Source: Verrucomicrobiales bacterium
GTDB lineage: Bacteria > Verrucomicrobiota > Verrucomicrobiia > Limisphaerales > UBA11320
NCBI GenBank assembly: GCA_016793885.1
Contig: JAEUHE010000009.1
Location: 1-64,000, forward strand
Direction of reading: 5' to 3'
Length of the DNA stretch: 64,000 bases
Shown: one piece after another, positions 7,939 through 61,398 of the stretch
Numbering within the stretch: position 1 is the first letter of the stretch
Layout of the letters: each line of letters opens with the position of its first letter
Translations under genes and position numbers: made by a program
The notes under the pieces: generated by a model
What the model saw: the letters and a program-made list of their open reading frames with translations, nothing else
What the model was told of the DNA's origin: nothing
Databases searched by the model: none

Positions 7939-8622
7939 CTAAGGCCGCGAATGGATCCGCCCTCTCCGCAATTCAAACCCGACGACTCCGATAACCACCA
8001 GAATCAGGCAGACGATCTGGTAGCCGCTGACCTGTCCCATTAAGCGGGGAGTGTCACGAACCGTTTCGTGCAGAAAACGAAAACAACCGTATCCAATCAG
8101 ATAGAGGTGAAAATGCTGTCCGGGAAGCCCCTGGAGACGGCGAAGGAGCCCAAAGGCACCCACCGCCAACAGGTTGAAGCCAAGCTCGAGCGGCACCGAT
8201 GGCCAGCGATGATGCCCATGAGCATCCACCAGGGTGTACCAGGCTGGCTGACAGACCTGTCCCTGACAACAGCCGGCCGACCAACAGCCCAAGCGTCCCA
8301 GCGCAATGCCCAACGGAACGGTCGCAGCGAACAGATCGCCGGTCGCATGAGGATACTTCAGCGATCGTTTCATCAGTTCCACACTGACGTATCCGCCGAG
8401 CAATGCCCCCAGCACGCTTTTTCCCGTTGCCCACTGGAGCCATCGATCGGGCGCGTTCAACTGCAGGAACCCCTCCGCAGCCCAGTACACCGCCTTGGCT
8501 CCAGCAAACGCGCCGAACAGTGCGGCCAGGTAGATCCACAGCAGGCGCGTCTCCCGGCGGCTGTGCCGGATCCAGAACAGCGCGCTCAACAGGATCCCCA
8601 GTCCTAACGTCCAACGATACAT
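7939..8622 (-). CDS. Lgt-like (prolipoprotein diacylglyceryl transferase family) membrane protein
   Basis: About 227 residues with six to seven membrane segments and the Lgt fold signature: GKSVLGALLGGYVSVEL (~70-85), the Arg motif GRLGCWSAGCCQGQ (~110-123) and a C-terminal RFLHETVRD before the last helix. In true Lgt the Arg motif reads GRxGNFxN-E; here Asn and Glu are replaced by Cys, as in a common Lgt paralogue group whose substrate is not known. So this is probably not the housekeeping lipoprotein enzyme. Its ATG (8622) shares one base with the TGA of the upstream radical SAM gene, showing tight translational coupling. A TTG one codon earlier is in frame. It may move a lipid-linked group onto or off something made by its partner; that is inference. 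Confidence 0.82.
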   Translation of the reverse strand: MYRWTLGLGILLSALFWIRHSRRETRLLWIYLAALFGAFAGAKAVYWAAEGFLQLNAPDRWLQWATGKSVLGALLGGYVSVELMKRSLKYPHATGDLFAATVPLGIALGRLGCWSAGCCQGQVCQPAWYTLVDAHGHHRWPSVPLELGFNLLAVGAFGLLRRLQGLPGQHFHLYLIGYGCFRFLHETVRDTPRLMGQVSGYQIVCLILVVIGVVGFELRRGRIHSRP

Positions 8623-10052
8623 CAAGGCACCCCTCCTCCGCCATAATACCTACAGAAGGAATCCAAACTGCCATCCGGCCGAATGACGTGCGTGCAGCAG
8701 CGGTCGATCCGGTCCTGATCCCAGGTCCAAGCGTCCATGAACGGTTTGACCATGATTCGAAACGTCATGCCCGCCTGAAGCTGAAACTCTTTCAATACCT
8801 GGCCTAAGGGCTCGGATTCACAGCCGCATTGAGCCAAGTCGGCCAGGTTATACTGCACCCGATCTTTGAGAAACCCCTGCAGCTGACCGAAGTCGATGTA
8901 CTCGCTCACCGACCGAACCTCCGAAGGCAGCCGCAACAAATAGCCAATGGTGGCGCAATTAGGATCCCCGCACGGGAGCGGGGTGAAATCTTCGAACTTA
9001 AGCACGCCCGCGGACTGTTCAACAGCCTGGAGCAGAATATCGGCCGTGTTCAGTCGGTTCACAGCTAGGGGCGGCACGGCGAGCCTCGGACTCGCTTCGG
9101 CATTCCGTCCGCTCCCAAACACCGGCTGAAAGGTGATTCCCTGAATGTGGGGAGCGCTGAGACCAAACTCGATCGCCTCCCAGACGTGGCTCAGATTGGA
9201 CGGGGTCACGGTCATGGCCAACGTGACGGGCAGATTCATCTCTCCGGCTCGTCGAACCACCTCTTGGCGGGTCGCCCTCAAGTCCGCGCCACGCAACTCG
9301 CGCTGTCCCTCGGCCTGCAGGCCATCGAACTGAAGATACAGCTGAACGCGACGTCGTCTCGCCGCTGCCGCGAAGTTCGCTACGAACTCCGCATCATGGG
9401 CCAGTCGAACTCCGTTAGTATTCACCAGGATATAATCGATTCGAGGATGTGTTTGCGCCCACTCCAGCAGCTCAAAGAACTGCGGATGCAGCGTCGGCTC
9501 GCCCCCGGACAACTGCAGAATCTCGAGTTTCCCCTTCCGGTCGATGACGCCTTGGATTCGACGCTTGAGATCTTCGATCGGTGTGGCTTGAACCTTGGCT
9601 CCAGAACCCAGCGGCGAATCAGCGTAGCAGGTCGGGCAGGACAGGTTGCAGCTCTGGACGATCTCGATCAGCGCCAGGCAGGTCGAGAGGGTTTCAAAAG
9701 GGGAGCCGGGCTTTTGGTTCGCATTTCGGCCCAGCGTGCCACGGGCTTCGCCAGCGGCGCTACAGCAGGTTCCCCCGTCGCAACAACGCGAGTCGCCGCC
9801 TCGAGCGCCCGAGGAAAGCCAGTAAAACCGGGCATCCGAAGCAATGCAGACGGAAAAGAATCCATGCGCCGGACAGCGTCTTTCCAATAGGACTCGGGCC
9901 GGTTCATCGGAGGTCTTCCAGACTTCGGCGGGACAGGAGAGCCCGCAGATCGGACAACGGCTGAGGGTGGACTTGAGCAGAGTTTTGCCATCAGCCGAAG
10001 CAGCAAAAGGTTGTGGCGAGGGAAGCAAGGGAATGGAGGAGAGAGGAATCAT
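8622..10052 (-). CDS. Radical SAM enzyme resembling tetraether-lipid synthase (Tes-like)
   Basis: Protein of 476 residues. An N-terminal Cys-rich domain (CPICGLSC near 35 and CPAHGFF near 60, then a second Cys patch CCDGGTCC near 90) precedes the radical SAM core CNLSCPTC (CX3CX2C, near residue 135) with SGGEPTLHP. The C-terminal half carries PLPCGDPNC, QCGCE and the end block AWTWDQDRIDRCCTHVIRPD then FCRYYGG, consistent with extra Fe-S clusters. This layout matches my memory of the archaeal MJ0619/Tes family, which joins phytanyl chains through C-C bonds, and its bacterial homologues. Whether this protein works on lipids is inferred. It sits between a one-helix protein and an Lgt paralogue. 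Confidence 0.8.
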   Translation of the reverse strand: MIPLSSIPLLPSPQPFAASADGKTLLKSTLSRCPICGLSCPAEVWKTSDEPARVLLERRCPAHGFFSVCIASDARFYWLSSGARGGDSRCCDGGTCCSAAGEARGTLGRNANQKPGSPFETLSTCLALIEIVQSCNLSCPTCYADSPLGSGAKVQATPIEDLKRRIQGVIDRKGKLEILQLSGGEPTLHPQFFELLEWAQTHPRIDYILVNTNGVRLAHDAEFVANFAAAARRRRVQLYLQFDGLQAEGQRELRGADLRATRQEVVRRAGEMNLPVTLAMTVTPSNLSHVWEAIEFGLSAPHIQGITFQPVFGSGRNAEASPRLAVPPLAVNRLNTADILLQAVEQSAGVLKFEDFTPLPCGDPNCATIGYLLRLPSEVRSVSEYIDFGQLQGFLKDRVQYNLADLAQCGCESEPLGQVLKEFQLQAGMTFRIMVKPFMDAWTWDQDRIDRCCTHVIRPDGSLDSFCRYYGGGGVP

Positions 10053-10102
10053 GGTGTTGAGGGGTTAAGCAAGCGGAGGCGCACAAGCAGGCGTCATCGC
10101 CT

Positions 10103-10309
10103 TCAGGGAATGAGGGCACAGGCGCCGAACAAGAGCGCCAGGCCCACCAGGACAGCGCCGAGCAAAGCCGCGATGACCAACGCCACCGACCTGAGGTGAG
10201 ACCTTTTCTTCTGATAGTCGATGCCCGGGTGGTCCTCATCGGTCCAGCGAGGTTGGGGGGGCTTGGGGTTAGAATCAGGTTCCGGAGGTCCGGCAGGTTC
10301 GTCGTTCAT
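10103..10309 (-). CDS. Small single-span membrane protein, unknown
   Basis: A 68-residue product from ATG at 10309 (a TTG at 10321, with AGGA upstream, is an alternative start). It has a Pro-rich acidic N-terminal half (EPAGPPEPD, then DEDHPGIDYQKK) and one membrane helix near residues 42-65 (SVALVIAALLGAVLVGLALL). It lies 50 bases upstream of the radical SAM gene on the same strand and would be first gene of that run. No family recognised. Short length makes it less certain, but the composition is protein-like. Confidence 0.55.
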   Translation of the reverse strand: MNDEPAGPPEPDSNPKPPQPRWTDEDHPGIDYQKKRSHLRSVALVIAALLGAVLVGLALLFGACALIP

Positions 10310-10387
10310 AGCGGAGAGCAAACTATCCTAGCTTGCGGTCCCAACGTGAATCGATAAACCTCGCTCGCCATCGGGAAATTCGATGTT

Positions 10388-11311
10388 ATGAACCTGCATC
10401 ACCTGGAACTTTTCTATTACGTAGCGAAGCATGGCGGCATCATGGAGGCGGTGCGCAATATTCCCTACGGAGTGCAGCAACCCGCGGTGAGCGGTCAACT
10501 CGGCCAGTTGGAGCATGATCTAGGACAACGCCTGTTCATTAGGCGGCCGTTCACGCTGACGGCCGGGGGTACCGAACTCTACCGGTTCATACGCCCCTTC
10601 TTCGATCAACTCCCCAGGATGGAAGAAAAGCTCCGTGGTGACGTGAGTGAGAGACTGAGATTTGCCGGACCCACGCTCGTCCTCCGTCATCATCTGCCAG
10701 CAATGCTATCGGAGATCCGACGCAAGTTCCCAGGACTTCGATTCGACCTTCGCGAGGCTTCGCAGCCCCAGGTGGAAAAGGCGCTGCAGGACCAGGAGAT
10801 CGACCTCGGAATCACGCTGCTGGAAGGGACCATCGGGGCCGGGATCGAGTCAGCCGTCCTCATGCAGCTGAACCTCGTGCTGCTCGTCCCGTCCGATCGA
10901 CCTGAGAAAACCGCCGAAGCAGTCTTGGCGGGGGATCTCCTTCAGGAAACGCTCATCAGCTTTCCGGAGACGGAACCGGTTTACCGTCGCTTCCGCGAGC
11001 ACCTTACCAAGAAAGGACTTGATTGGCCCACCGGCATCGAATTGGGGTCGCTCGACCTGATCGAAACCTACGTGCAGCAACGACTGGGCATCGGGCTCTC
11101 CGTGAAGATTCCCGGGGGGACGCTTCGGCCAGAAATTCGCGAACTCCCCCTCAAAGAAATTCCAGGTGTGAAGGTGGGCATCCTCTGGCGATCGCCCCTC
11201 AACCCTGTCGCCGAGACCCTCCTGAGTCAGCTGAAGGAAAAAGCGCGCTTGCTGTCGAATTCCCCGGCTCCGGCAATCGGAGCCCGAACCCGCAGGGTTC
11301 ACCGAAATTAG
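10388..11311 (+). CDS. LysR family transcriptional regulator
   Basis: Protein of 307 residues. The N-terminal winged helix (1-62) reads MNLHHLELFYYVAKHGG, QQPAVSGQLGQLEHDLGQRL and TLTAGGTELY, the standard LysR pattern with slight variation. Residues 90-290 form the periplasmic-binding-like effector domain. It is divergent from the small-membrane-protein/radical SAM/Lgt-like run, with a gap under 80 bases, so it is a candidate regulator of that run; the effector is unknown. The last ~20 residues (from LLSNSPAPAIGARTRR) are encoded by the family B element that starts near 11251, so the natural end was probably replaced by the insertion. Confidence 0.88.
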   Translation: MNLHHLELFYYVAKHGGIMEAVRNIPYGVQQPAVSGQLGQLEHDLGQRLFIRRPFTLTAGGTELYRFIRPFFDQLPRMEEKLRGDVSERLRFAGPTLVLRHHLPAMLSEIRRKFPGLRFDLREASQPQVEKALQDQEIDLGITLLEGTIGAGIESAVLMQLNLVLLVPSDRPEKTAEAVLAGDLLQETLISFPETEPVYRRFREHLTKKGLDWPTGIELGSLDLIETYVQQRLGIGLSVKIPGGTLRPEIRELPLKEIPGVKVGILWRSPLNPVAETLLSQLKEKARLLSNSPAPAIGARTRRVHRN

Positions 11312-53598: not shown

Positions 53599-56500
53599 AT
53601 GTGTTACAGTAGTTTAGATCCTATGTATCCTCCGATCCCCCCCTCGGTTACACGTTCCCTGACCGCACTCGTGTTCATGCTGCTGCTGGCATGTTCGAGC
53701 GGAAGAATAGTCGCAGCCGAGACGGTTGTGATCTCCGAGTTCATGGCCAGCAATACATCCGGAGCCGTCGATGAGGACGGTGAAACCTCGGACTGGATCG
53801 AAATCTTGAACGCCGGGAGTTCCAATGTTTCCCTGTCCGGATGGCGGTTAACCGACGATCCATCCAACCTTTCGAAGTGGGTTTTTCCGGCCACCAACCT
53901 CCCGCCCAACGGATTTCTCCTCGTTTGGGCATCCAGCAAGGATCGTCGGTTGCCAGGCAAACCGCTCCATGCCAACTTCGGTCTGAATGCCAATGGCGAG
54001 TACCTGGCTCTGATCCGCCCGGATGACACTCGGGCGAGTGAATTCAATCCGTTTCCGAAGCAGTACGACAACATCTCCTACGGCGTGTTTCAACAAATCG
54101 ATGCCAGCCGCTTTGTCGAAACAAATAGCCTCATCAAGGCCTACGTTCCCTCCAACAACACGCTCGGTCTAACGTGGACCGCCCGCAGCTTCGCGGACTC
54201 TTCCTGGGTGCAGGGCATCAATGGTGTGGGCTACGAACAGTCGGTGCCTGGGTTCGCGGTCAAAAACTTTAAAGCAAATGCTACGGTGGGTAATCTCGCG
54301 ACCGCCGACAGCGTGATCTCCACCCCCTCCCTCCAAGCCAACGTCTATTCCGAGAACCGGTCCATCATCAACTATTTCAACAGCGGCGGCACCGGCAACT
54401 ACGGCAATGACAGCCCGTTCCCTGGCTTTGACCTGGTGACGGACGTGGAGGACTTCGTAGTCGAAGTCACCGGCACACTCACGGTACCTAGCGCAGGTGC
54501 CTGGACCTTCGGAGTGAATAGCGACGATGGATTCCGTCTGCAGATCGGATCCTTCACCATGAGCTTCCCGGATCCTCGTGGGTCGGCCGACACGCTCAGC
54601 ACCTTCAACTTTCCTTCCGCCGGTGACTACGCCCTCCGCCTGGTCTTTTACGAGCGCGGCGGTGGATCGGAACTCGAGTTCTTCGCCGCCCCAGGCAGTT
54701 TTGTGGCTTGGAATTCCACCAACTTCCGCCTGGTCGGGGACCCCACGGGCGGGCTCTCTGTCCGATCCCTACCCATCGGTCAGACCATTGGCTTCAAGAG
54801 CCTGATCAAAACCGATGTCCAAACCAGCCTCTATAACCGCAACTCCGGGGCCTATTTGCGCCTTCCTTTCTTTGTGGGCTCTCCCTCCGCCTTGGGAACC
54901 CTGACGATGCAGGCTAAATACGACGACGGGTTTGTCGCCTATCTCAATGGAACCTTGGTCGCGAGTCGAAACGCCCCTCCCTCTCCGGCTTACAACGCGG
55001 TCGCTACCACCGAACGGGCGGACTCGGAGGCCATCGTGTCGGAGACGATCGACCTAAGTCCCTTCCTGGGCAATCTCACCGCCGGCAACAACGTGCTCGC
55101 CGTCCATGCCCTCAACCGAGCAATCAACGACGATGACTTCCTCTTTCTCGCCGAGCTATCGGAGGTTAAATCCTCCCTGCTTACCAACAACTACTTCGCT
55201 GCCTCAACGCCGGGAGCGTACAATTCCTCCACCATTTACAACAAAGTCCGCGACACCCACTTCAGCCATGATCGTGGCTTTTACGAAACCAATTTCAGTT
55301 TAATCATCACTTGCGACACACCGGGGGCGACCATTCGCTACACCCTCGATGGGACCGCTCCGACCGCGGCCACCGGACAGCTGTACTCCACCCCCCTGGC
55401 GATCGACAAGACCACCACCGTCCGGGCTGCCGCGTTCAAGGCCGGATTCGTTTCTTCGGATGTCGACACCCATACCTACCTCTACACCCGCGACATCATC
55501 ACCCAAGCTCCGAGCGGAGCCGCACCGGCAGGCTGGCCCAGCTCCTGGGGAGGAAATGTCGTCGATTACGGAATGGATCCCGACATCGTCAACAACCCGC
55601 CTTGGCGGGATACCATCCAGGAAGATCTCAAGTCCTTGCCCAGTTTTTCGGTAGTTATGAAACTGGGGGATTTGTTCGATCCCTCCACCGGAATCTATGC
55701 CAATCCGGGCGGCGATACCATCGCCTGGGAAAGAAGCTGCTCCCTGGAGCTGATTCAACCCGATGGGTCGGCCGGATTTCAGGAGAATTGCGGCATCCGG
55801 ATCCGGGGCGGATTCAGCCGCAGCACGAGCAATCCCAAACACGCGCTCCGGTTCTTCTTCCGTCAGGAATACGGCGCACCGAAGCTGAACTTCCCGGTCT
55901 TCGGAAAGGATGGAGCCAACGAGTATGACAAGTTCGATCTGCGAACCACCCAAAACTACTCCTGGGCCTTCCAGGGCGATCCCGGAAGCATCTGGCTCCG
56001 GGATCAATTCAGCCGCGATACCCAGCTCGCCATGGGACGGCCAGCCGAGCGCGGGAATTGGTTTCATCTGTACATCAATGGTCAATATTGGGGTCTGTTC
56101 AACAGCGACGAGCGGGCCGAGGCGTCTTTCGGAGAGACCTATTTCGGAGGACGGGAGGAGGACTACGACACCATTAAGGTTGGTCCTGACCAAGGTTACA
56201 ATATCTATGCCACCGATGGCACCCTGGATGCCTGGTCGCGACTGTGGCAGGCCGCCGTCACCGGGTTTGCCAATAACGCTGACTACTTCCGCATCCAAGG
56301 CCTGAATCCCGATGGCACTCCGAATCCCGCGTTTGAGAACCTGTTGGATGTGCCCAACCTGATCGATTACATGCTGGTGATCATCTACGGCGGCAACCTG
56401 GACGCTCCGATCAGCAACTTTCTGGGCAATACCTCACCCAACAACTGGTTCGGCATCCGGGATCGCACCGGCGCGCATGGAGGGTTTCGATTCATGAGTC

Positions 56501-59500
56501 ACGACGCGGAGCACACCCTCCTCAACGTGAATGAAGATCGATCGGGACCGTTCGCTGCCGGAGATCCCACCCAGGGGAGCGGATTTGAGAAGAGCAGCCC
56601 GCAGTACCTGTATACCCGACTGTGGGCCAACGCGGAGTTCCGCATGCTGTGCGCCGATCATATCCAACGACACTTCTTCAACGGAGGTGTCTTCACCGTA
56701 TCAAATGCCCAAGCGCGTCTGGACCGTCGAACTAACGAGATCTTCCGGGCGCTGGTGCCCGAATCAGCCAGGTGGGGCGACTCCAAGCGCGGAACTCCCA
56801 TCACCCGTGACGATTTTCTCTCGTCCTACAACAACGTCCGAAACGCCTATCTGCCCGCCCGCGGCGCCGTCGTGCTCAACCAACTGCGCAACGACGGATT
56901 GTTCCCCAACCTGAACGCCCCCGGATTCAGCCAACTGGGAGGCTTTGTGCCCTTTGGATATCCGCTCGTCCTGACGGTCAACAACGCCCAGGGCACGATC
57001 TACTACACGCTGGATGGCTCCGATCCTCGACTCCTCGGCGGCAACATCAACCCCAGCGCGACTGCCTACGCCGCACCCATCGTGCTCAATACCGCCAAAA
57101 CCGTTCGAGCCCGTGTCCGAAACGGAACGGTCTGGAGCGCGATCGTCGAAGCCACCTTCTATCCACTCCAAAATCTCGACGGCCTGGCTATCACCGAGAT
57201 GATGTACAATCCTCCTGACGCAGGTACCGTCCTGGGAGATGAGTTCGAATTCATCGAGCTTAAGAACACCACCGCCAACACCATCGACCTCAGTGGACTC
57301 TCCTTTACCGAAGGGATCAGCTTCATCTTCACCAACGGCACCACCCTCGGAGCCGGACAGTTTTTCGTGCTCGCACGGAACGCCGCCGAGTTCAAGAACC
57401 GCTATCCTGCGGCTCCCGTTCACGGGGTCTTCACCGGCCGACTCGACAACGGAGGCGAAGTCATCCGCCTCAAACACACGCTGGGCGGCACCGTGTTCAC
57501 GGTGACCTATGACGACGATCTGCCCTGGCCCTTGGCGGCCGACGGTTATGGGTTCAGCCTCGTCACTCGCGAGACGAACCCCAGCTCCAATTCAGAAAAT
57601 GGGGCCAAGTGGCGAGCCAGCGCAAACCCGCTGGGTAGCCCGGGCGCCGACGATCCCGCTCTTCAGATTCCAGGAATCCTGGTAAACGAGGCATTGACCC
57701 ACACCGACCTCCCCGCGGTCGATCAGATCGAGCTCTACAACCCGACGGATGCCGCGGTCAATTTGGGCGGCTGGTTTCTCTCCGACGATGCCTCATTACC
57801 CAAAAAGTATCGCATTCCCAACGGGCGACAGATTGCCGCCCGAGGCTATGCCGTGTTCTCCGAGGCGGACTTCAACCTGGATCCAGGATCTTCCAACAGC
57901 TTTCGACTCAGTTCCACCGGCGACCAGATCTACCTCCTCTCCGGGGACGCTAACACCAATCTCACCGGTTACAGCCACGGGTTCACATTCGGTGCCTCGG
58001 CGAATGGGGTCAGCTTCGGCCGCTATGTGAATAGTCAGGGGGAGGAACACTTTCCATCCCAGGCTTCTAAGACCTTCGGCGCCACCAACAGCGGGCCGCT
58101 GGTCGGCCCCATCGTGATCAACGAGATCCAGTATCATCCCGATGTGAGCTATGACGAGTTTGTCGAACTGCACAACATCACCTCCACGAACGTGCCGCTG
58201 TATGACCTCAACGCCACCACAAACACCTGGAAGCTGAGCGGCTTTAACTTCAAGTTCCCGCCAAACCTAAGCCTGCCCGCCGGTGGATACCTGATCCTCT
58301 CGCCCCTCGACCCGGCTACGTTCCGCGCCAAATACTCGATCCCTGCCGGGGTCCAAATCCTAGGGCCGGTGGCTGGAAATCTCCAGGACAGCGGCGAACG
58401 CCTGGAACTCTTGCGTCCCGATGCCCCCAACACCAACGAGGTCCCGTACATCGTGGTGGACGCCGTTCGCTACAACGACCGCGAACCCTGGCCCGTGGTG
58501 GCCGACGGCAGTGGCCCCTCACTCCAACGCCGTCAGCCCAGCAGCTACGGCGATGATCCTGTCAACTGGTTCACCTCCGGCATCACTCCCGGCCGACCGA
58601 ATCTCCCCAACGTGGCGCCCACCGTGGTCCTCACCAGCCCTGCTGCCGATTCCACGTTCCTACCTCCAGCCACGATCCTCATGGAGGCCACCGCCAGCGA
58701 TCCCGATGGCTCCATCCTCAAGGTGGAGTTCTACTCCGATGGTGTGAAGCTGGGCGAGGACACGAGTGCCCCCTTCTCCTACTCCTGGGTGAACGCCAGC
58801 TCCGGAACCCACAGCCTGACCGCAAAAGCCTTCGACAGCGGATTGTCGATAGCGGTCTCCGAGCCGGTGCAGATCAGCATCGTCTCCCCCACCACCACCA
58901 CGGTCATCGGCCGAGGATCCCAATGGCGATACCTCGACAACAATGTGCCGCCCGGGGCCGGCTGGACCAATGTCACCTTCAATGATGCCGCCTGGAAATC
59001 CGGGGCCGCCCAACTGGGCTATGGCGATGGAGACGAAACCACTGTTGTCGGATTCGGACCCGACGCGAACGCGAAATACATCACCACCTGGTTTCGCCGA
59101 TCATTCACCCTCACCAACATCACCCGCTATCTCACGCTGGACCTGGCGGTGCTGCGCGATGATGGAGCGGTGGTCTATCTGAACGGCCTGGAAGTCTTCC
59201 GCAGCAACATGCCCGAGGGTGCGATCACGCCATCGACGCTCGCGTCGTCGGCCGCGGCCGGAGGCGACGAGACCTCCAATTTCTACACCAAGGCGCTCGG
59301 CACCGCCCTGTTGCGGGAGGGGCCCAACGTGCTGGCGGTAGAAATCCACCAGTCCGGAGCCAATAGCAGCGATCTCAGCTTTGATCTGGAGCTGACCGGC
59401 ACGCTGGCACCGATCATCCCCACCATCCAGCTCACCAGCCCAGCCAACAGCACCGAGTTTTTTGCCCCGGCGACCGTGTCATTAGCCGCGGCCGCGGCCG

Positions 59501-61398
59501 ACCCCGAGAATGGGATCAACCGAGTTGAGTTCTTCAGCGGCTCCACACGCCTCGGCCAAGACAACACAGCCCCCTACACCTTTGACTGGTCCGGCGTGGC
59601 AGCGGGCAGCTACACCCTCCGGGCGATCGCGTTCAACACTCTCGGGCTCGCTCGGACGTCCGCTCCCGTTAACGTCACGGTAAAGGCGAATGTTGCTCCC
59701 ACGGTCACCCTATCTCAGCCTGCGAACGGATCCGTTTTCGTCTCTCCCGCCTCGCTGACCCTGGAGGCGGAAGCCGCCGATCCTGATGGCAGCGTCGCCC
59801 GAGTGGAATTCTTCGCCGACGATGTCAGCTTGGGCGCGGACAGCTCCTCCCCCTATTCCTTGGTCTGGCCCAGCCCAGCGCTCGGCTCGCACGTTCTTAA
59901 AGCGGTGGTGACCGACAATCAGAACGTCAGCATCTCCTCGCCCCCCGTGACGATCACCATCACGAATGTCATCACCTACCCGTTCACTCTCGTGGCCGCG
60001 GGCTCGCTGTGGCGCTACCACGATCGGGGAACCGACCTCGGGACAACCTGGAGCGACTCCAGCTACGATGACAGCAGCTGGCCTCTGGGACTGGCTCAGT
60101 TCGGCTACAGCCCGGACGAAAACGATGAGGCCACAGTGCTGGACTTCGGTTCCGACTCGAACAACAAACGAGTGACGTACTATTTCCGACGTGAGTTCCA
60201 AGTGCGCAACACCGCCGGCATCTCCGAGCTGCAGGTGCGCTATGTGCGGGATGATGGAATCATCGTCTATATCAACGGTAATCCTATCGTCAGGGATAAC
60301 TTCGCCGACGGGAACGTCTCCTACGAAACGCCGGCGCTCAACGTGATTTCGGGAGCAGATGAGTCGCGATACATCACCAACTCGGTTGACCTGGATCTCC
60401 TAGGCAGCGGCATCAATGTAATTGCTGTCGAAGTGCATCAGCAATCCGTCACGAGCAGCGACCTGAGCTTTGATCTGGAGCTGTTCGGCCGGGGGCCAAC
60501 CATGGCTCCAAGCATCCATGTAGAGCCGATTGGGGCGAGCCTCGCACCAGGCCAAGCGGTCCGTTTGCAGACCGCCGCCGGCGGAAGCACTCCGCTCGGA
60601 TTCCAATGGCGAAAGAATGGCGTCGATATCCCCGGAGCCAACGGGAGCAGCCTCAACCTTACCGATGCCACCCCCGCAACCGAAGGTGCTTATACCGTCA
60701 TCGTCTCGAATAACAGCGGTTCGGTAACCAGCCGCGTCGCGGCCATCACGATCGAAGGCGGCCCGGCAATCACTCGCCAGCCCACGAGCCAGACCGCGGC
60801 GTTCACCGGCACCGCCTCCTTCTCCGTCGAGGCGTCGGGTCCTCCCACGCTTACCTATCAGTGGTTCTTCAACGGCGAGCCAGTCTCAGGAGCGACCGCC
60901 ACCAGCCTCCAACTCTCGAACATCCAGACCGAACAGGCCGGCCAGTACTGGGTGGTAGTGAGCAACCCGTTCGGCAATGCCACATCCGACCGAGCCACAT
61001 TGACCGTCAACGTTCCGGATTCCGACGGCGACCTGATGCCCGATTGGTGGGAAGACCTCCACCAATTGAACAAGCTCAGCGCCAGTGATGCTTCGCAGGA
61101 TCCCGACGACGATTCCCATAACAACCTGGATGAATACGTCGCGGGCACGGACCCACGCGACCCGAGCAGCGTGCTCTGGCTGGAGGTTTTCCCTGAAGGA
61201 GATCAGGTCTCCATGTATTTCTACGCCGTTCCCAACAAGGCCTATACCGTCCAATACACGGAGGACGTCTCCTCAGGAGTCTGGCTCAAATTCGCCGATG
61301 TTCCAGCCAGGACTTCCCTCGAAGCGGTGAAGTTCCGCGATCTCAACGTTGGCAAGGCCAGGTTCTATCGCGTGATCACGCCACCGGCGACCCCGTAA
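53599..61398 (+). CDS. Giant CotH kinase/lamin-tail surface protein
   Basis: Protein of 2599 residues; ATG at 53623 (residue 9) is an equally good start before the signal peptide (ends near IVAAE). Order of domains (approximate residues): lamin-tail LTD 43-150; PA14-like 249-364; galactose-binding-like 399-520; chitobiase C-terminal-like 568-631; CotH 680-1060 (IRIRGGFSRSTSNPKHALRF, WLRDQFSRDTQLAMGRPAER); second chitobiase-like 1125-1188; three LTD 1193-1280, 1358-1418, 1505-1578; Ig-like 1674-1761; galactose-binding-like 1768-1935; two Ig-like 1943-2125; galactose-binding-like 2131-2298; two Ig 2305-2471; Ca-type DSDGDLMPDWWED and DPDDDSHNNLDEY; FYRV tail. CotH is a secreted protein kinase in Bacillus spores. 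Likely cell-surface or secreted. Confidence 0.92.
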   Translation: MCYSSLDPMYPPIPPSVTRSLTALVFMLLLACSSGRIVAAETVVISEFMASNTSGAVDEDGETSDWIEILNAGSSNVSLSGWRLTDDPSNLSKWVFPATNLPPNGFLLVWASSKDRRLPGKPLHANFGLNANGEYLALIRPDDTRASEFNPFPKQYDNISYGVFQQIDASRFVETNSLIKAYVPSNNTLGLTWTARSFADSSWVQGINGVGYEQSVPGFAVKNFKANATVGNLATADSVISTPSLQANVYSENRSIINYFNSGGTGNYGNDSPFPGFDLVTDVEDFVVEVTGTLTVPSAGAWTFGVNSDDGFRLQIGSFTMSFPDPRGSADTLSTFNFPSAGDYALRLVFYERGGGSELEFFAAPGSFVAWNSTNFRLVGDPTGGLSVRSLPIGQTIGFKSLIKTDVQTSLYNRNSGAYLRLPFFVGSPSALGTLTMQAKYDDGFVAYLNGTLVASRNAPPSPAYNAVATTERADSEAIVSETIDLSPFLGNLTAGNNVLAVHALNRAINDDDFLFLAELSEVKSSLLTNNYFAASTPGAYNSSTIYNKVRDTHFSHDRGFYETNFSLIITCDTPGATIRYTLDGTAPTAATGQLYSTPLAIDKTTTVRAAAFKAGFVSSDVDTHTYLYTRDIITQAPSGAAPAGWPSSWGGNVVDYGMDPDIVNNPPWRDTIQEDLKSLPSFSVVMKLGDLFDPSTGIYANPGGDTIAWERSCSLELIQPDGSAGFQENCGIRIRGGFSRSTSNPKHALRFFFRQEYGAPKLNFPVFGKDGANEYDKFDLRTTQNYSWAFQGDPGSIWLRDQFSRDTQLAMGRPAERGNWFHLYINGQYWGLFNSDERAEASFGETYFGGREEDYDTIKVGPDQGYNIYATDGTLDAWSRLWQAAVTGFANNADYFRIQGLNPDGTPNPAFENLLDVPNLIDYMLVIIYGGNLDAPISNFLGNTSPNNWFGIRDRTGAHGGFRFMSHDAEHTLLNVNEDRSGPFAAGDPTQGSGFEKSSPQYLYTRLWANAEFRMLCADHIQRHFFNGGVFTVSNAQARLDRRTNEIFRALVPESARWGDSKRGTPITRDDFLSSYNNVRNAYLPARGAVVLNQLRNDGLFPNLNAPGFSQLGGFVPFGYPLVLTVNNAQGTIYYTLDGSDPRLLGGNINPSATAYAAPIVLNTAKTVRARVRNGTVWSAIVEATFYPLQNLDGLAITEMMYNPPDAGTVLGDEFEFIELKNTTANTIDLSGLSFTEGISFIFTNGTTLGAGQFFVLARNAAEFKNRYPAAPVHGVFTGRLDNGGEVIRLKHTLGGTVFTVTYDDDLPWPLAADGYGFSLVTRETNPSSNSENGAKWRASANPLGSPGADDPALQIPGILVNEALTHTDLPAVDQIELYNPTDAAVNLGGWFLSDDASLPKKYRIPNGRQIAARGYAVFSEADFNLDPGSSNSFRLSSTGDQIYLLSGDANTNLTGYSHGFTFGASANGVSFGRYVNSQGEEHFPSQASKTFGATNSGPLVGPIVINEIQYHPDVSYDEFVELHNITSTNVPLYDLNATTNTWKLSGFNFKFPPNLSLPAGGYLILSPLDPATFRAKYSIPAGVQILGPVAGNLQDSGERLELLRPDAPNTNEVPYIVVDAVRYNDREPWPVVADGSGPSLQRRQPSSYGDDPVNWFTSGITPGRPNLPNVAPTVVLTSPAADSTFLPPATILMEATASDPDGSILKVEFYSDGVKLGEDTSAPFSYSWVNASSGTHSLTAKAFDSGLSIAVSEPVQISIVSPTTTTVIGRGSQWRYLDNNVPPGAGWTNVTFNDAAWKSGAAQLGYGDGDETTVVGFGPDANAKYITTWFRRSFTLTNITRYLTLDLAVLRDDGAVVYLNGLEVFRSNMPEGAITPSTLASSAAAGGDETSNFYTKALGTALLREGPNVLAVEIHQSGANSSDLSFDLELTGTLAPIIPTIQLTSPANSTEFFAPATVSLAAAAADPENGINRVEFFSGSTRLGQDNTAPYTFDWSGVAAGSYTLRAIAFNTLGLARTSAPVNVTVKANVAPTVTLSQPANGSVFVSPASLTLEAEAADPDGSVARVEFFADDVSLGADSSSPYSLVWPSPALGSHVLKAVVTDNQNVSISSPPVTITITNVITYPFTLVAAGSLWRYHDRGTDLGTTWSDSSYDDSSWPLGLAQFGYSPDENDEATVLDFGSDSNNKRVTYYFRREFQVRNTAGISELQVRYVRDDGIIVYINGNPIVRDNFADGNVSYETPALNVISGADESRYITNSVDLDLLGSGINVIAVEVHQQSVTSSDLSFDLELFGRGPTMAPSIHVEPIGASLAPGQAVRLQTAAGGSTPLGFQWRKNGVDIPGANGSSLNLTDATPATEGAYTVIVSNNSGSVTSRVAAITIEGGPAITRQPTSQTAAFTGTASFSVEASGPPTLTYQWFFNGEPVSGATATSLQLSNIQTEQAGQYWVVVSNPFGNATSDRATLTVNVPDSDGDLMPDWWEDLHQLNKLSASDASQDPDDDSHNNLDEYVAGTDPRDPSSVLWLEVFPEGDQVSMYFYAVPNKAYTVQYTEDVSSGVWLKFADVPARTSLEAVKFRDLNVGKARFYRVITPPATP

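Follow-up and report, generated by a model that had tools for sequence, protein, structure and literature searches.

Gene organization of the locus

The window, that is, the whole 64,000-nt stretch of DNA that was analysed, contains on its minus strand the genes of a small one-helix membrane protein, a radical SAM enzyme (rSAM) and an Lgt paralogue (Lgt2), and on its plus strand a divergent gene for a LysR-family regulator (Table 1). The stop codon of rSAM and the ATG of Lgt2 have one base in common (TGATG). The first-pass annotation had reported the rSAM with its Cys motifs, the one-base overlap with an Lgt-family protein and the preceding one-helix protein, and all of these were confirmed in place. 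The incidental role that it gave to the one-helix protein did not stand: proteins with a Cys-bearing tail recur beside the enzyme pairs of relatives, which makes this protein the best candidate substrate. Farther along the window, positions 53599-61398(+) encode a protein of 2599 aa with CotH kinase, four Lamin Tail Domains, PA14 and bacterial Ig domains.

Table 1. Features of the rSAM-Lgt2 locus in the window.
Feature	Position	Strand	Remarks
Lgt paralogue (Lgt2)	7939..8622	-	227 aa from ATG; Pfam LGT; sole PDB match Lgt 5azb
Tes/TrsS-superfamily radical SAM enzyme (rSAM)	8622..10052	-	476 aa; above Pfam cut-offs, below curated NCBIfam cut-offs; structure match to 7tol
Small one-helix membrane protein, candidate substrate	10103..10309	-	ATG 10309, stop 10103; 68 aa from ATG
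F-G-A-C motif of the small protein	10118..10129	-	Cys codon TGT at 10118-10120; four residues (ALIP) after Cys
LysR-family regulator, divergent	10388..11311	+	Pfam HTH_1 and LysR_substrate

One scan of genome contigs, with patterns narrow enough to miss distant members, returned 139 relatives, of which 80 were kept. Nearly all of these are titled Verrucomicrobiota or one of its genera; one is titled 'delta proteobacterium' and one only 'bacterium'. The LysR protein was 62% identical to its counterpart in a locus of the same genus (G002/L046), and proteins of 45-48% identity were encoded near a few other loci, most loci having none. A homologous LysR gene lay within about 3.5 kb upstream in no more than a few of the 80 relatives. 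The earlier proposal of LysR as a switch is weak given such rare linkage, and LysR was discarded as a core part because it is seldom linked. It is possible that it regulates the module.

The radical SAM enzyme

The rSAM protein contains CPIC (residues 33-36), CPAHG (60-64) and CX3CX2C (C135/C139/C142) motifs and a C-terminal DRCCTHVIRPDGSLDSFC block. Its N-terminus is zinc-ribbon/rubredoxin-like (CX2C...CX2H), and further Cys motifs lie at the C-terminus. Radical_SAM (E 3.7e-16) and Zn_ribbon_HMPTM (E 6.9e-11) of Pfam both exceeded their cut-offs. Among curated models the likeness to TrsS, a (seleno)protein radical SAM enzyme, gave the top score (NF045646, 203.8 bits), which missed the cut-off of 490; the Tes model NF045702 gave 138.8 bits against a cut-off of 450. 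As judged from sequence, rSAM is a member of the Tes/TrsS superfamily, yet by the curated cut-offs it belongs to neither Tes nor TrsS.

Tes couples the ends of lipid chains. An AlphaFold model of rSAM, built from 25 natural sequences (pLDDT 75.7, pTM 0.80, some loops poorly predicted), had GDGT-MAS/Tes (7tol) as its best structural match in the PDB, with E 1.6e-29 and TM 0.73. SkfB was the second structural class (TM 0.37). The profile match to 7tol had E 8.4e-82, with an alignment covering profile positions 10-452. The Tes-like character noted in the first pass therefore holds over the whole length, and the best match is a lipid enzyme, not a non-lipid radical SAM class. The enzyme combines the Tes fold with the N-terminal CX2C...CX2H, the CX3CX2C and the C-terminal CC/FC motifs. 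It thus shares with archaeal Tes/GDGT-MAS (MJ0619) the whole-length fold, the Cys motifs and the superfamily, and differs in scoring far under the cut-off, in being bacterial, in its partnership with Lgt2 and Cys-tail proteins, and in forming a separate clade. In a 24-sequence tree that included a single Tes sequence, the enzymes of the window type formed a clade (98/98) separate from MJ0619 Tes, and Lgt-partnered enzymes clustered far beyond shuffled labels; one origin of the Lgt-partnered enzymes is a possible history. Like its family, rSAM is presumably cytoplasmic.

Three other suggestions were discarded. The rSAM gene of G335, considered for a selenoprotein TGA, has an intact reading frame. 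A role in anti-phage defence was suggested only by a generic similarity to viperin confined to the rSAM core. As to a viral origin, phage records gave no match and viral contigs no full-length relative.

The Lgt paralogue

Lgt2 scored 87.1 bits with Pfam LGT (PF01790; gathering cut-off 24.9) and 49.6 bits with the housekeeping Lgt model TIGR00544, below its cut-off of 118.9. Its AlphaFold model (pLDDT 95.3, pTM 0.90) was used in a structure search in which only E. coli Lgt matched: 5azb was the sole PDB match with E < 0.001 (E 2.2e-7, TM 0.67). In the profile alignment, with Lgt2 residues numbered in the longer frame that begins one residue ahead of the ATG, E. coli Y26, R143, G154, Y235, R239, E243 and R246 correspond to Y3, R111, G122, Y179, R183, E187 and R190. 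H103 is replaced by L72 and N146 by C114, so that the set of essential E. coli residues (Y26, H103, R143, N146, G154, R239) is not fully kept in the window. The H103 position is occupied by Leu, Val, Ile or Thr in Lgt2 proteins, and H103 is not conserved in every Lgt (PMC13251419). Phosphatidylglycerol is positioned in E. coli Lgt by the two essential arginines R143 and R239 (PMC4728403, PMC13251419).

The Arg motif reads GRLGCWSAGCCQG in Lgt2 and GRLGNFINGELWG in E. coli. The first-pass annotation had drawn attention to Cys in place of Asn and Glu here. These residues are present, but they are nothing special to Lgt2: the one other Lgt of the host, a canonical one, has GRIGCLMTGCCYG, as do the other canonical Lgts of the phylum with a readable motif, and Cys at these positions of distant Lgts has already been published (PMC13251419). 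The Cys residues were therefore discarded as a sign of altered function. The periplasmic head of Lgt2 is short: the alignment leaves some 22 residues of the E. coli head region unmatched. A head of this size would suit an acceptor that hardly extends beyond its Cys. Lgt2 thus resembles Lgt in its fold and in the equivalents of Y26, R143, G154 and R239, and differs in the loss of H103, in its short head, in its score under the TIGR00544 cut-off and in being an additional copy, since a canonical Lgt was present besides it in the rSAM-Lgt2 genomes checked.

The small membrane proteins and their cysteine

The small protein of the window has an acidic and Pro-rich N-terminus, KKRSHLR ahead of the helix, and the C-terminus VLVGLALLFGACALIP. 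Across the 80 relatives, small membrane proteins encoded near the pair on the same strand likewise have a C-terminal TM helix followed by F-x-G-C; in general, [GA]C comes after a hydrophobic helix and leaves a few residues to the C-terminus. With a single helix-tail criterion for all counts, the tail Cys was present in 70/86 helix-tailed ORFs that lie on the same strand near the start of rSAM, in 1/27 minus-strand helix-tailed ORFs farther from rSAM and in 8/94 of the genome background, these 8 including the tail of the window itself. The background sample comprised 444 kb of the host and 400 kb of G376, in each case some 5-7% of the genome. The difference between near-rSAM ORFs and background gave a Fisher P of 6e-25, a value in which the shared ancestry of the loci overstates independence. 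No second F-x-[GA]-C tail was found in these 444 and 400 kb, and the tail signal may still be a genome-wide sorting tag. By the strict criterion 14 of the 80 loci had no tail, some of them lying just under the threshold or at contig ends.

In the 77 tails with a small residue ahead of the Cys, position -3 was F in 46 and position -1 was G in 53 and A in 17. The positive-inside rule predicted a C-out orientation for 68 of them, which would place the Cys at the extracytoplasmic end of the helix, matching the position of the lipobox Cys of prolipoproteins. In the largest tail family (15 members, mean identity 39%) the only invariant columns were F, G and C. The tails counted had the Cys at a distance of 3-18 residues from their C-terminus, with two exceptions. 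One locus (L138) has it at the end of the first helix and not near the C-terminus. In the other (L254:1261-1812(-)) about 75 mostly charged residues lie beyond the tail-family FFFGC, so a C-terminal position of the Cys is not obligatory.

Loci carry one to four tail genes, with local duplication. Most tails are three-helix membrane proteins; hhalign found several clusters of these to be distantly homologous and others not, and the view of tails as entirely unrelated families was softened by this kinship. Two loci (L033, positions 10514-10702, and L052) repeat 24 residues of the rSAM C-terminus (92%) farther downstream, beside a second tail gene, which marks a tandem duplication that included the tail gene.

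These features bear on a reading of the locus as a pathway for membrane-spanning lipids, in which rSAM would act like Tes and couple phospholipid fatty-acid chains, Lgt2 would make or recycle the lipid donor and the small proteins would be accessory. Tes is by far the top structural match of rSAM, and a part in brGDGT synthesis has been proposed for Tes homologues of bacteria (PMC8941075). Such a pathway leaves the strict F-x-G-C motif and the multiple, duplicating small proteins per operon unexplained, and rSAM falls below the Tes cut-off and apart from MJ0619 in the tree; we regard it as quite unlikely. The earlier suggestion that the pair might make or use unusual membrane lipids found no support as far as a free product is concerned, rSAM scoring below the cut-offs of both Tes and TrsS. 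Rather, a lipidated membrane protein is indicated as the product, since the most consistent further partner carries a lipobox-like Cys.

Linkage and distribution

Lgt2 was encoded downstream of rSAM in 65 of the 68 loci with at least 1.2 kb of downstream sequence (the exceptions were L083, L093 and L097), so that the adjacency of the pair, for which a survey had been proposed, is kept and not lost in relatives. The gap was at most 150 bases in 40/71 pairs, and small genes intervene in other pairs. Distance matrices of rSAM and Lgt2 were correlated (r 0.79). In one sample of 388 Verrucomicrobiota genomes, high-scoring, orthologous rSAM and Lgt2 were confined to the same seven, a co-occurrence with a chance of about 4e-15 if shared ancestry is ignored. 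Two genomes (G335 and G376) have the two genes far apart yet keep both, with Cys-bearing tail homologues elsewhere in the genome. Three others (G039, G155, G216) have other Tes-like rSAMs and one Lgt only. An Lgt2-like match in G303 was discarded as Lgt2, being its only Lgt and canonical. Five divergent rSAM homologues of Verrucomicrobiota (about 30% identity) each adjoin Lgt2, and a Cys-tail protein is present in four of these loci, the fifth being L138. Cultured carriers include Chthoniobacter flavus Ellin428 and isolates of Haloferula and Verrucomicrobium. In Prosthecobacter-like genomes (L078, L085, L086, L089), tandem genes after Lgt2 resemble, by eye, LptC/OstA-type periplasmic proteins.

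The trio was found in at least three phyla, plasmid records being the sole source beyond Verrucomicrobiota; the rSAMs of the trios from mycobacterial plasmids, Nonomuraea and Persicobacter had 25-32% identity. In Mycobacterium avium and M. branderi, plasmid records contain an Lgt-family gene, two small proteins and rSAM, and the readable small proteins terminate in ...GxCTGLNPxxY. The trio of rSAM, Lgt2 and Cys-tail protein is likewise present in Nonomuraea and Persicobacter. The remaining plasmid homologues examined have a methyltransferase partner and neither Lgt nor a comparable Cys tail; the window rSAM differs from these TrsS-like enzymes in having Lgt2 as its partner and no adjoining methyltransferase. 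Among them, haloarchaeal and M. vanbaalenii plasmids (L232, L234, L238) pair a Tes/TrsS-like rSAM with the methyltransferase, with thiol-redox genes nearby. We consider it highly probable that rSAM, Lgt2 and the tail protein constitute a real module.

Comparison with known systems

Canonical lipoproteins have an N-terminal signal peptide and lipobox, with the mature protein after the Cys; the tails fail this description, their Cys lying near the C-terminus. There is a likeness to the MYXO-CTERM/myxosortase system, whose C-terminal helix comes with an invariant Cys for which lipidation by an Lgt-like enzyme has been proposed (PMC11980579). There, however, the Cys precedes the helix (inverted topology), the cytoplasmic end is Arg-rich, a CPBP protease is the partner and substrates number dozens per genome (PMC11980579). 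In the window type the Cys follows the helix, the tails found are few and mostly local, and no protease recurred beside the rSAM-Lgt2 pair in the neighbourhood clusters of relatives.

DAG-RiPPs resemble the proposed product as peptides that are both enzyme-modified and diacylglycerylated, and differ in their N-terminal lipobox, the housekeeping lipoprotein pathway and their MNIO enzymes (PMC12636315). The existence of these hybrids is one argument for taking the locus as one for a lipidated RiPP, in which rSAM would alter residues of the small protein by thioether formation, crosslinking or epimerisation and Lgt2 would add the lipid, to give a secreted or membrane-active lipopeptide or signal. 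The substrate genes are also small, fast-evolving, locally duplicated and adjoining rSAM, and the SkfB maturase is the second structural match. In contrast, the largest tail family has no conserved core residues besides F-x-G-C, the tails are mostly three-helix membrane proteins, the neighbourhood clusters show no recurrent gene for a peptidase, an exporter or immunity, and no RiPP-maturase model reached its cut-off among the best 25 NCBIfam matches listed. A RiPP seems unlikely on balance, if somewhat less so than a free-lipid pathway.

In the open-access literature, to which the search was confined, no paper described rSAM and Lgt in one system. The nearest ideas are MYXO-CTERM lipidation and DAG-RiPPs, both different in topology and enzymes. 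What is new is the three-part system; the superfamilies of its parts are already known.

Proposed function

We suggest, with a probability of roughly 0.6, that the operon is a membrane-protein modification module consisting of a candidate substrate and two enzymes, with Lgt2 lipidating the tail Cys. The tail protein would insert with its N-terminus in the cytoplasm and present the Cys of F-x-G-C at the periplasmic end of the TM helix. Lgt2 would then move diacylglycerol from phospholipid onto this Cys. Such a transfer is most likely the first step, because the Cys is predicted to lie where the active site of Lgt meets a lipobox Cys and because the dedicated Lgt has kept its lipid-binding arginines. 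Next, rSAM would abstract hydrogen and modify the product, at its lipid chains as a best guess or at the peptide or helix. Lipid chains are favoured since it is an enzyme acting on a lipid chain that rSAM matches in its fold and in every cluster region; we would nevertheless place lipid and peptide at about even odds.

Some observations argue against lipidation: the motif is F-x-G-C and not the usual L-x-x-C, and Lgt2 has no counterpart of H103, which is essential in E. coli. Against the module reading, one genome (G364, locus L259) keeps two neighbouring tail-like genes with Cys and has neither rSAM nor Lgt2. The tail Cys could instead serve a disulfide or metal site, the small proteins being regulators or redox partners and Lgt2 acting elsewhere. 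Zinc-ribbon domains, which are also present in some tails, and the missing H103 would agree with this. The Cys nonetheless resembles a lipobox Cys in coming after a small residue where the helix is predicted to end on the periplasmic side, and the strictest partner is an Lgt homologue, which leaves a non-lipidated Cys very unlikely.

Under lipidation of the tail Cys by Lgt2, rSAM might go on to link the acyl chains of the diacylglycerol on this Cys with the helix or with another lipid; the result would be a membrane-spanning or lipid-stapled membrane protein. This extension is doubtful, and to our knowledge a covalently lipid-stapled or membrane-spanning lipidated protein is not known in any organism.

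The attachment of lipid to protein in bacteria is known mainly at N-terminal lipoboxes, via one general Lgt. If the proposal is true, a second, dedicated Lgt for tail-Cys membrane proteins and a Tes-like rSAM would constitute a separate lipidation route, and Tes homologues in environmental genomes need not signal tetraether lipids. The module offers defined, expressible candidate substrates with which the function of this rSAM subfamily can be probed, and it points to a possible route to lipid-modified membrane proteins that is as yet undescribed.
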